Assembly: GCF_000737325.1 (NCBI RefSeq)
Contig: NZ_CP011125.1
Location: forward strand, 7,812,001-7,876,000
DNA length: 64,000 nucleotides
Direction: 5' to 3'
From: Sandaracinus amylolyticus
Lineage (GTDB): Bacteria; Myxococcota_A; Polyangia; Polyangiales; Sandaracinaceae
In this document: in pieces, positions 13,403-44,224 of the stretch
Numbering within the stretch: the stretch's first letter is position 1
Layout of the letters: the number at the start of each line of letters is the position of its first letter
The notes under the pieces: generated by a model
Told to the model about the DNA's origin: nothing
Databases searched by the model: none
The model's input: the letters and a program-made list of their open reading frames with translations, nothing else
Made by a program: the position numbers and the translations under genes

Positions 13403-13515
13403 TTGGGGGCTCGCCTTCGCTCGTCTCGTGCGTTCCGTGTCTGCTTCGGCGAACGTCGCGCGCCGCGAGCTCGGATCGATCGGCTTCGGACACGAGTCGA
13501 CGCAGCTCGAGCGCG

Positions 13516-13676
13516 TTCGATCGCGATCGGACGCGGGTCGATCGAGCTTCGATCGCGACCGGACGCGGGTCGATCGAGCTTCGATCGCGATCGGACGCGG
13601 ATCGATCGAATTTCGATCGCGATCTGACACGGATCGATCGAATTTCGGTCGCGATCTGGCGAGAGATCGCTCGAAT
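13516..13676 (+). repeat. Five tandem 32-bp repeats, palindrome-rich
   Basis: Units start at 13516, 13548, 13580, 13612 and 13644 (the last is 33 bp). Each begins TTCGATCGCGATC or a variant and ends near TCGATCGA(GC/AT). The first units contain CGATCGCGATCG, a perfect 12-bp palindrome. Divergence increases from left to right. No coding frame with a recognisable protein runs through it. Confidence 0.8.
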
Positions 13677-13804
13677 TCGCGGCACTTTCGACGCGTCTCG
13701 CCAAGCTCCGACGGGAGGGGGGTGGGAAGGCCAACTTCCGGGGGTCGGAAGGCCAGCTCCTGGCCATCCATCGCCACGCCTCGGGGATCTCGACGCCAAC
13801 CGGC

Positions 13805-13905
13805 GGCGGTCGAGCCCTCCCGATGCGGCGATCGAACCCTCCGCAGGCGGTGATCGAACCCTCCCGAGGCGCCGATCGAGCCCGCCGAGGCGCCGATCGA
13901 TCGCC
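13805..13905 (+). repeat. Tandem 22-bp repeats
   Basis: GATCGA(A/G)CCC or a close variant recurs at about 13809, 13830, 13852, 13874 and 13895, with spacing 21-22 bp. The units contain GGCG(G/C)(C/T)GATCGA and CCCTCC. It continues the non-coding repeat mosaic after the 32-bp array. Confidence 0.6.
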
Positions 13906-30928: not shown

Positions 30929-31420
30929 ATGCACCGCGCGAACGTCCTCACCCGGCTCGTCCTCACTGCATCGATGGTGCTCGCCGTGCTCGCCGCGTGC
31001 GCCTCGGGCGACACCGGCGCGAGCGCGCAGGCCGCCGGACGCTGCGCGCACTGCGGGATGCGCGTGCCCGCGGACTCGACGTGGCGCGCCGGGCTCACCA
31101 CCGCGTCGGGCGAAGCGCTGCTCTTCGACGCGCCGAAGTGCATGTTCCGGATCCTGCGCGGCGAGCGCGGGCGCGACGCGCGCGAGCCGTGGGTCATCGA
31201 GTACTACGCGAGCGAGCGTCGCCCCGCGTCGTCGCTCGTCTACGTGCTCGGCAGCGACGTCGAGAGCCCGATGGGCCGCGACCTCGTGCCGATCGAGGGC
31301 CGCGAGCGCGCCGAGCGCTTCCAGCGCGATCACCACGCGCAGCGCGTGCTCACGTACGACGAGGTCACGTCGAGCGTGATCGACGAGCTCTTCCGCCCGG
31401 GCGGCGGTCACGCGCACTGA
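30929..31420 (+). CDS. NosL-like copper-binding lipoprotein
   Basis: A 163-residue predicted lipoprotein with LAAC box, C24. The NosL motif CAHCGM (C39, C42, M44) follows, and DAPKCMFRIL plus FQRDHHAQRVLTYDEV match the rest of the NosL family. NosL delivers Cu(I) to nitrous oxide reductase in denitrifiers; no nosZ or other nos gene is in this window, so another copper client is likely, perhaps the adjacent CPFC membrane protein. It probably shares a transcript with that gene. Confidence 0.78.
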   Translation: MHRANVLTRLVLTASMVLAVLAACASGDTGASAQAAGRCAHCGMRVPADSTWRAGLTTASGEALLFDAPKCMFRILRGERGRDAREPWVIEYYASERRPASSLVYVLGSDVESPMGRDLVPIEGRERAERFQRDHHAQRVLTYDEVTSSVIDELFRPGGGHAH

Positions 31421-31460
31421 GGAGGGAGGCTCCACCCTCCGATCGTGCCCGGCGCGAGCG

Positions 31461-31736
31461 ACGATCCAACGCTCGACCGTGGCTGCGGTGCTCGGCGCAC
31501 ACGATCCATCCACGCTCGACCGTGGCCGTGGTGCTCGGCGCACACGATCCATCCACGCTCGACCGTGGCCGTGGTGCTCGGCGCACACGATCCATCCACG
31601 CTCGACCGTGGCCGTGGTGCTCGGCGCACACGATCCATCCACGCTCGACCGTGGCCGTGGTGCTGGGCGCACACGATCCACCCACGCTCGACCGTGGCTG
31701 CGGCGCTCGGGCTGCACGATCGATGCACGCTCGACC
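31461..31736 (+). repeat. 43-bp tandem repeat array (minisatellite)
   Basis: ACGATCC or a variant recurs at 31461, 31501, 31544, 31587, 31630, 31673 and 31716; the first spacing is 40 and the rest are 43 bp. Units include ATCCATCCACGCTCGACCGT followed by GGCCGTGGTGCTCGGCGCAC. Each contains CCACG-ctcgac-CGTGG, a small inverted repeat. The middle four units are nearly identical; the edges have diverged. Since 43 is not a multiple of three, no protein repeat is encoded. It fills most of the 391-base gap before the kinase gene. Confidence 0.9.
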
Positions 31737-31811
31737 CTTCGCGTCGCGTTCGCGCGCACCGACGGGATCTCCGCCCTCTCCGCGCGTGCGCGCTATGCTG
31801 CGCGCGCCTCG

Positions 31812-33455
31812 ATGACCCCCTGTCCTCGCTGCGGCCACGAGAACGTCGATCACGCGCGCTTCTGCTCCGCGTGCGGCGCGATCCTCGAAGCCCGCGCGAG
31901 CGTCGACGATCCGCTGATCGGACGGATCGTCGCCGATCGATACCGCATCGTCCGCCCGATCGGCGAGGGCGGCATGGGCCGCGTCTACCTCGCCGAGCAG
32001 CGCATGGGCACCACGACGCGCGCGGTCGCGATCAAGGTGCTCACCACGCCGATGAGCGACTCGCTCGCGGTCGCGCGCTTCTACCGCGAGTGCGAGACCG
32101 TCGTGCAGCTCACGCACCCGCACACGATCCGCTTCTACGACTTCGGCGAGCTCGCGCTCCCGCTCTCGAGCGGCGCGGTCGATCGCCGGCTCTACATCGC
32201 GATGGAGTACGTCGACGGTCGCTCGCTCGCGACCGCGATCGAGTCGGGCCCGCTGCCGCTCGACATCGTCGATCGCCTGGTGCGTCAGATCGGCGGCGCG
32301 CTCACCGAGGCGCACCGGCGCGGCATCGTCCATCGCGATCTGAAGCCCGACAACGTGCTGCTCGCGCACAACGAGGCCGAGGGCGAGATCGCGAAGGTGC
32401 TCGACTTCGGCATCGCGAAGAAGGACCACGTCGAGGGCCCCGAGATCACCGCGCAGGGCACGATCATCGGCACGCCGGCCTACATGAGCCCGGAGCAGAT
32501 CTCGGGCATGCGCGTCGACGAGCGCTCCGACGTCTACGCGCTCGCGCTGATGACCTACGAGATGCTCACCGGCGCGCGGCCCTTCGCGGCGCGCACGCCG
32601 ATCGAGTGGGCCACGGCGCACATGATGTCGGCGCCGCGATCGTTCGACGAGTTCCCGTCGGCGCAGGCGCTCTCGCCCGAGCGACGCGCGGCGATCCTGC
32701 GCGGGCTCGAGAAGGACCCGCAGAGCCGCACCGCGTCGGTGCGCCGCTTCGTCGACGACTTCTGCGGCATCGAATCGAGCCAGCCCACGCCGATCCCGCG
32801 CATCCCGTCGACCGCGCCGCCGAGCGATCTCGGCAACGCGCCGACGCTCGCCGCGCCGCACACGCCGCGCGACACCGCGCCGCACGTCGGGGCGATCCCG
32901 GGCGCAGGCCCCGGCCTCGGCGCGATCCTCGGCGCGGCGCTCGGCGGCATCGCGCTGATCGCGGCGGGCGCAGCGACGGTGTGGGTCGTCGCAGGCGGGC
33001 CGAGCGACGTGCAGGACGTCGCGGACGCGGCGGCGCCGCACGATGCGGGCACCGATGCCGAGGGCCACCTGCCGCACGAGTGGCTCACGATCCTCCACTT
33101 CGAGGAGCGAGCGCGCGACGCCACGCACGCGCTCGGCCCGCCCGACGGACGCTGCGCATCGATCGCGCCGGGCGGCACGATCACGCTCGAGCTCACGCCG
33201 GGGGCGCGCATGCTCACCGACGGCACCGAGCACCCCGACCTGCAGATCGAAGTGCGCGAGGGATCGGGCCCCTATCGCGTCGACGTGGGCGTCGAGCGCC
33301 GGCAGTTCCGCACGATCGCGCAGGGCCTCGTGACGAGCTCACCGCTCGACGTGGATCAGTTCGGGATCCCGCGCTTCCGCTACGTGAAGATCAAGAACCG
33401 CGCGACCCGCGGCGACGTGTGCGTCGACGCGGTCGCGGCGCATCGACACGAGTGA
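31812..33455 (+). CDS. Ser/Thr protein kinase with zinc ribbon and C-terminal envelope domain
   Basis: A 547-residue transmembrane kinase. Residues 4-21 hold a zinc ribbon (C4, C7, C18, C21). The kinase domain spans about 44-315 with GEGGMGRVY (51-59), K75, HRDLKPDN (174-181), DFGIAKK and MSPEQISG. A Pro/Thr-rich linker leads to one membrane segment near 367-395. The outer domain of about 150 residues has ALGPPDGRCASI and a YVKIKNRA strand, resembling a galactose-binding-like beta sandwich; this is inferred. It would sense an envelope signal. The 43-bp repeat array lies directly upstream, and the convergent neighbour's stop abuts its own. Confidence 0.87.
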   Translation: MTPCPRCGHENVDHARFCSACGAILEARASVDDPLIGRIVADRYRIVRPIGEGGMGRVYLAEQRMGTTTRAVAIKVLTTPMSDSLAVARFYRECETVVQLTHPHTIRFYDFGELALPLSSGAVDRRLYIAMEYVDGRSLATAIESGPLPLDIVDRLVRQIGGALTEAHRRGIVHRDLKPDNVLLAHNEAEGEIAKVLDFGIAKKDHVEGPEITAQGTIIGTPAYMSPEQISGMRVDERSDVYALALMTYEMLTGARPFAARTPIEWATAHMMSAPRSFDEFPSAQALSPERRAAILRGLEKDPQSRTASVRRFVDDFCGIESSQPTPIPRIPSTAPPSDLGNAPTLAAPHTPRDTAPHVGAIPGAGPGLGAILGAALGGIALIAAGAATVWVVAGGPSDVQDVADAAAPHDAGTDAEGHLPHEWLTILHFEERARDATHALGPPDGRCASIAPGGTITLELTPGARMLTDGTEHPDLQIEVREGSGPYRVDVGVERRQFRTIAQGLVTSSPLDVDQFGIPRFRYVKIKNRATRGDVCVDAVAAHRHE

Positions 33456-43840: not shown

Positions 43841-44224
43841 TCAGGTCGCTGCGTCCGTGCCCGCGTCCTCGGTGCTCGCGTCGGTGCCGGCGTCGTCCCC
43901 ACCAGCGTCGCTACCGGCGTCGGTCTCTCCATCGCCGGCGTCGGTCTCTCCTTCACCGGCGTCGGTCTCTCCTTCACCGGCGTCGACCTCTCCTTCGCCA
44001 GCGTCCTCCTCCATACCGGCGTCGGTCTCGGTGATGTCGGTGCACTCGGAGTCCGGCTGGCAGGTGCCGCGGGCCGGGACCGATCCGGTGGTCTTGCAGC
44101 AGATCAGCCCGCTCTCGCAGTCGCCGTGGACCTGGCACGTCTCGCCGCGCGTCTGACCGCAGCCCGAGGCGGTGATGGCGAGGACGAGCGCTGTGGCGAA
44201 GAGCGTTGCGAATCGAGACGACAA
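43841..44224 (-). CDS. DAG-repeat lipoprotein, 127 aa
   Basis: A 127-residue predicted lipoprotein. TTG 44224 is preceded by GGAGG with 6-base spacing; the signal ends TASGC at C22. A Cys-rich segment (ETCQVHGDCESGLICCK) of about 45 residues resembles a small disulfide module. The rest is seven-residue acidic repeats of the type EGETDAG, followed by DAG repeats. The repeats make a negatively charged spacer, usual in this organism's surface lipoproteins. It sits 25 bases before the kinase start. Confidence 0.65.
   Translation of the reverse strand: MSSRFATLFATALVLAITASGCGQTRGETCQVHGDCESGLICCKTTGSVPARGTCQPDSECTDITETDAGMEEDAGEGEVDAGEGETDAGEGETDAGDGETDAGSDAGGDDAGTDASTEDAGTDAAT

Follow-up and report, generated by a model that had tools for sequence, protein, structure and literature searches.

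Why does a chromosomal Ser/Thr kinase gene of Sandaracinus amylolyticus have a tandem array of 43-bp units directly in front of it? A preliminary description of the window (the whole 64,000-nucleotide stretch of DNA that was analyzed) had taken the array for a recently homogenized minisatellite of seven units, whose copy number could tune expression of the kinase. We assessed the array itself, the same locus in related species, and the repeats of the genome at large. The features of the locus are as follows, with gene models from our own simple caller, not from a curated annotation.

30929..31420, + strand: NosL-family gene, 163 amino acids (gene model; PF05573, 1.6e-15)
31412..31420, + strand: GCGCACTGA, left copy of an 8/9 direct repeat in the last NosL codons, at the edge of the gained segment, placed by eye
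31421..31440, + strand: GGAGGGAGGCTCCACCCTCC hairpin directly 3' of the NosL stop, without a U-tract (z 0.15, ordinary for its composition)
31421..31762, + strand: 342-bp gained segment, the array plus edges that resemble degenerate units when inspected by eye (from the spacer comparison; exact ends by eye)
31464..31736, + strand: 43-bp tandem array (TRF, 6.3 copies; seven CGCTCGACC cores)
31510..31525, + strand: CCACGCTCGACCGTGG dyad, the first of five exact copies, which start at 31510, 31553, 31596, 31639, and 31682
31754..31762, + strand: GCGCACCGA, the matching right-hand copy of GCGCACTGA, at the other edge of the gained segment
31812..33455, + strand: zinc-ribbon Ser/Thr protein kinase gene, 547 amino acids (PF00069, 1.3e-44; PF13240, 3.4e-8)

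The array proved to be real. TRF called a period of 43 bp with 93% matches and a score of 451, whereas the best score among dinucleotide shuffles of the 391-bp intergenic region (n = 300) was 73. The CGCTCGACC cores start at 31470, 31513, 31556, 31599, 31642, 31685, and 31728, so that six of six gaps measure 43 bp. Three of the middle four units are identical and the remaining one carries a single change, which bears out the near-identity described for them. Head-to-tail units of about 10-100 bp, repeated beyond chance, make the array a minisatellite. The CCACG/CGTGG inverted repeat had been assigned to each unit, which is slightly too strong, because the exact CCACGCTCGACCGTGG form is present in only five of the seven; the first unit reads CAACG..CGTGG, and the last one lacks the right arm. 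For its composition, the inverted repeat of the unit is no better than chance (unit fold z -0.63, dyad score z 0.0 to 0.5).

Open reading frames cross the array in all six frames. A coding repeat was ruled out, as 43 is not divisible by 3 and a congener without the array (G002) keeps the start of the kinase gene, in agreement with the initial proposal that selection is on DNA or RNA. Rfam covariance models gave no match at E values up to 1 in 31001-32000, and a simple scan of 31300-31900 revealed no promoter-like and no U-tract terminator-like site. A phage- or plasmid-derived array was rejected as well, since blastn at E 1e-5 returned no match to it in collections of 72,556 plasmid and 50,697 phage records.

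The kinase ATG (31812) lies 75 bp beyond the end of the array. Each of the 10 genomes searched in the family has a kinase homologue, and the orthologue in G002 is 90% identical. A NosL homologue was present in the fetched flank of the kinase at 3 of 12 loci, those of the studied genome (G000) and of its congeners G001 and G002. Both congeners are array-free at this locus: the NosL-kinase spacer measures 391 bp in G000 versus 49 bp in G002 and 51 bp in G001. Between anchors, the distance is 305 bp in G000 versus 34 bp in G002, with flanks that are 91% and 96% identical. Parsimony applied to these spacers suggests that the G000 lineage acquired 342 bp, the equivalent of about eight units. The array-free congeners and the near-identical middle units uphold the view of the array as recent and homogenized. 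Where one sister genome has an array and another lacks it at the corresponding site, the origin of such arrays becomes testable.

Because the CGCTCGACC core came from the kinase-upstream array, we ran a survey of G000 that did not use the core. The sample totaled 1.264 Mb and was made up of the window, 400 kb surrounding it, and forty 20-kb stretches distributed over the genome; arrays with at least 2.5 copies and a period of 25-70 bp were counted. Periods of 39-43 bp accounted for 13 of the 19 noncoding arrays but only 2 of the 19 in coding DNA (Fisher p 6e-4); the sample contains the window, itself chosen for the kinase-upstream array, and leaving out the two arrays of the window gives a noncoding fraction of 12 of 17. 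Extrapolation gives about 106 noncoding arrays of 39-43 bp per G000 genome. The other 12 arrays of this period in the sample were not core-picked, and their listed units are without the core; the core was thus rejected as a common signal of all 42-bp arrays. Genes around the 13 arrays are co-directional at nine, divergent at three, and convergent at one, and several arrays of the class begin 3-30 bp from a stop codon.

For periods of 18-60 bp, those of noncoding arrays tend to fall at full turns of the helix (helical phase R 0.80, n = 27), compared with R 0.25 for coding arrays (n = 85). Removing the 20-22 and 39-43 bp classes leaves six arrays (p about 0.06), and a plain 21-bp unit could therefore explain most of this phase. 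A count of 8-mer pair spacings in 121 kb of intergenic DNA, made without TRF, was highest at 42, 21, 41, 84, 12, 123, 43, 83, 63, 30, and 22 bp, of which 12 and 30 bp fall outside the 21-bp series. Unrecognized coding DNA may add to these counts, because 21, 42, 63, 84, and 105 are divisible by 3; the peaks at 41, 43, and 83 bp are not. In an all-against-all comparison of 31 units, 451 of 465 pairs scored like shuffles, indicating that the common feature is mainly the period. The other 14 exceeded the threshold, set as the best of one set of shuffles, and three of them represent a coding repeat in G005. The three 42-bp arrays of G005 (L199) were set aside, since on inspection by eye they resemble an overlooked coding repeat of 14 residues; they enter the unit comparison only and no period statistic. 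In the window, a 32-bp array (13472-13677) and a 22-bp array (13802-13900) share one 1.1-kb intergenic region, with periods of about three and two helical turns. In G002, the interval between the corresponding anchors contains a related 32-bp pair as well as 21/43-bp repeats of its own.

The class is dynamic, in line with the first impression of a changing array: besides the kinase-upstream locus, which is array-free in two congeners, the array stretches L097 and L117 align end to end in G002 and are 34 and 44 bp shorter there, about one unit each. The L131 array is much reduced or absent in G002 (148 bp between anchors versus 348 bp in G000), and a fourth class array compared with G002 was without clean flanks. 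Matches to array units at further G002 loci suggest that the units form small dispersed families. We also observed a 21-bp array in the window (43913-44029; noncoding according to the gene caller), whose G002 copy has 3.9 units versus 5.7 here. In G002, a run at L175 15109-15199 (G002:C1:10455109) contains the palindromes CGATTCTAGAATCG, GAATCTCCGAGATTC (twice), and TGGATTTTGATCCA at a spacing that, judged by eye, is about 21 bp. The run shows a 75-84% match to the L097 array of G000, and one of its palindromes resembles the L151 unit.

In 500 kb of G175, which belongs to another family of the order, the four noncoding arrays with a period of 31-84 bp had periods of 40, 42, 42, and 43 bp, accompanied by many shorter ones; low-complexity DNA of 95% GC makes up one of the four. 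Arrays of 42-43 bp also occur in G013, G048, G057, and G060, which were fetched because of the core. At a threshold of 2.5 copies, TRF detected no noncoding 39-43 bp array in a 400-kb sample of G002, although two such arrays are known from other parts of that genome; a 100-kb sample of G007 likewise yielded no noncoding array close to 42 bp. The controls from other phyla are thin. In 250 kb of a Cupriavidus megaplasmid, no noncoding 39-43 bp array was found, where the density seen in Sandaracinus predicts about 2.6, and a single 42-bp array was called coding; the Sandaracinus-trained gene caller assigned only 43% of this stretch as coding, and only 49% in G159. No array was found in 50 kb of E. 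coli, where the gene caller is unusable. Two further observations concern individual arrays. L193 7088-7831 (G175:C1) is a 17-copy 43-bp array with 97% match and the palindrome ACGAGCCGGCTCGT. In the related 42-bp arrays L139 9668-9920 and L140 9756-9971 of G013, the unit is invariant over a run of 21 columns, and its other half varies, with blocks swapped between copies; this pattern suggests either mosaic exchange or a conserved site whose spacer is free to vary.

On balance, we consider the kinase-upstream array to be probably a recently gained, near-neutral minisatellite, one of a noncoding population whose period is held at about 42 bp, or about four turns of B-DNA, and whose units mostly differ. 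It would have arisen by insertion or local amplification between the NosL-like and kinase genes after the split from the sister species, and such arrays would then grow, shrink, and homogenize through slippage or unequal exchange. Copy number is probably near neutral. A common length without a common sequence points to a ruler, such as a whole-turn duplication step or a nucleoid structure in which no other lengths are tolerated. The unit length may be set by DNA geometry and not by a shared sequence signal. The ruler could be a mutational intermediate or duplication step that favors whole helical turns, or the purging of copy-number changes that rotate the phase of neighboring sites; the 42 bp could also reflect a protein that, as at sopC, contacts a single helix face at intervals of four turns. 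Locally, the chief consequence, should there be one, would be the 342 extra bases between the two genes, which could weaken read-through into the kinase. We propose a broader version more tentatively, and would not call it probable: Sandaracinus and related members of the order may possess a geometry-defined class of about a hundred arrays per genome, in which a protein or DNA-processing ruler locks the period to about 42 bp, smaller peaks falling at two, three, and five turns; the kinase array would be a newly born member.

The best-surviving alternative is that the units are iterons, in which the CGCTCGACC core would recur on one helix face every four turns and bind a protein cooperatively, copy number setting the occupancy. 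By analogy this is conceivable, and we regard it as unlikely. Other copies of the core do exist: a triple core at 40-43 bp spacing was found at five loci in G000 (the kinase-upstream array and four further ones, at 41-43 bp), two in G002, and one each in G001, G013, G048, G057, and G087. The core is, however, a biased query, having been taken from the kinase-upstream array itself, and a reversed control pattern gave 6 matches in G000 against 13 for the core pattern. A wider core pattern had some match in 24 of 183 genomes of the order, of which 17 were judged, from the match listing, to be coding repeats or other spacings. Among 188 genomes drawn across the phylum, the core pattern matched three, all in the same order, and a wide genome contig scan for the triple core pattern gave 61 stretches in many phyla as raw pattern matches. 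Conservation within arrays also speaks for a binding site, as invariant runs over the 18 arrays tested gave a Fisher combined p of 3.6e-4, and those of 21 columns in the two related G013 arrays reached p below 0.001 each. The longest run in the kinase-upstream unit, CCACGCTCGACCGTGGC (17 columns, p 0.044), is weak as a single value among 18 tests, and the half-unit contrast over the same 18 arrays gave only p 0.045. Against iterons stand, furthermore, the 12 same-period arrays of the unbiased sample whose listed units are without the core, the array-free orthologous locus in two congeners, and the flanking NosL and kinase genes, which are not partition genes. Sequence is nevertheless not irrelevant, given the five CGCTCGACC loci in G000 and the related unit pairs, and a binding protein therefore remains a candidate.

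A second alternative places the function in RNA: a transcribed chain of hairpins, two per unit, would end or stabilize transcripts in the manner of tandem terminators or REP elements. The units of the class are indeed richer in dyads than shuffles (mean z 0.96 for 29 units, not all of them independent, and 1.15 for the 13 among them that come from the G000 sample), and the two best dyads lie at least 19 bp apart, about half a period, in 19 of 29 units versus 37% of shuffles. The kinase-upstream unit has this form, with the dyads CCACGCTCGACCGTGG and GTGCTCGGCGCAC 19.5 bp apart, a single case without significance. Folding of 147 nt of this array gave z -1.9, whereas its single-unit hairpins are ordinary. 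In G000, distinct neighboring hairpins 19-24 bp apart numbered 22 versus 10.6 in shuffles, a modest excess, and other distances showed excesses too. Within arrays, stem covariation amounted to 10 double changes, counted without a control, of which one in the last unit of the kinase-upstream array is probably an alignment slip. The start of several arrays close to a stop codon would suit an RNA element; their position between divergent genes in 3 of 13 cases, and the lack of an Rfam match or U-tract terminator at the locus, would not. Overall, we consider an RNA-level element quite improbable.

The gain could alternatively be a mobile insertion, composed of a 333-bp element and a 9-bp target duplication. 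The words GCGCACTGA and GCGCACCGA at the edges of the 342-bp gain agree at eight of nine positions (chance of 8/9 or better between random 9-mers of the genome, 0.00097), and a same-core array is present in G000 at G000:C1:6391057. The direct repeat is only suggestive of a target duplication, because the unit contains the similar word GCGCACACGA, so that the edge match may be a degenerate unit, and because the edge, at one locus only, was picked by eye. No terminal inverted repeats were visible by eye, and neither flanking gene encodes a transposase. We therefore judge a mobile insertion to be very unlikely.

Apart from the 42-bp class, we observed a palindromic element of 84-99 bp with the ends TCGGCTCGCC...GACGAGCACTCC, in one to four tandem copies per site that are mostly 96-100% alike within a site and seem, by eye, to share a site-specific linker. 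It is located at G000:C1:7704584-7704856, 7799465-7799810, 7792391-7792488, and 7943673-7943767, and at sites found only in G002 (in L164-L183). Its presence in one Sandaracinus species and absence at the same site in the other make it look like an active MITE- or REP-like element.

Finally, a copy-number dial for kinase expression, as first proposed, has in its favor that the array ends 75 bp before the kinase ATG and was recently homogenized. A conserved dial of this kind is not supported, however, and we hold the reading to be highly improbable, since the array is a recent gain absent from two congeners that keep the NosL-kinase pair, arrays of the class occur in all three gene orientations, and the simple scan of 31300-31900 revealed no promoter- or terminator-like site. 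The separation of NosL and kinase could still matter for expression of the latter. The kinase locus counsels caution: a regulator gene may be preceded by an array that does not act as a regulatory switch.

Returning to the array as a near-neutral member of a period-held population, we compared it with known systems. In one published account (PMC9178275), sopC (parSF) of plasmid F is made up of twelve 43-bp repeats, and every repeat contains an inverted repeat of 16 bp. The kinase-upstream array likewise consists of 43-bp direct repeats with an inverted repeat, which is exact in five of seven units and not above chance. Unlike sopC, which has one binding protein and lies beside sopA and sopB, the kinase-upstream array is chromosomal and flanked by a NosL and a kinase gene, most arrays of the class do not share its sequence, and two congeners lack it at this locus. 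With no parA or parB among the two flanking genes (NosL and Pkinase), a sopC-type centromere is not indicated, and the array resembles sopC in layout only.

CRISPR arrays combine regular direct repeats with unique spacers. The kinase-upstream array shares the regular direct repeats, but its entire 43-bp unit is repeated and there are no unique spacers, so that CRISPR was ruled out. REP/BIME-type palindromic repeats are intergenic, dyad-rich, and dispersed, as is the 42-bp class; REPs, however, have one sequence in common across the genome, whereas the arrays of the class share mainly their period, and the palindromic 84-99-bp element is nearer to REP. The closest counterparts are bacterial intergenic minisatellites or VNTR loci of the MLVA or MIRU type, which are built of head-to-tail noncoding units and differ between relatives. 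Like them, the kinase-upstream array has a homogenized middle and degenerate edge copies, and the class differs between close relatives, here compared between species. Unlike them, many G000 arrays have a common period near 42 bp and no common sequence. Among the matches listed in a search of the open literature by titles and abstracts, no paper dealt with period-locked intergenic arrays in myxobacteria. What sets the 42-bp class apart is a shared period without a shared sequence, and this length rule is of more interest than the kinase-upstream array alone.
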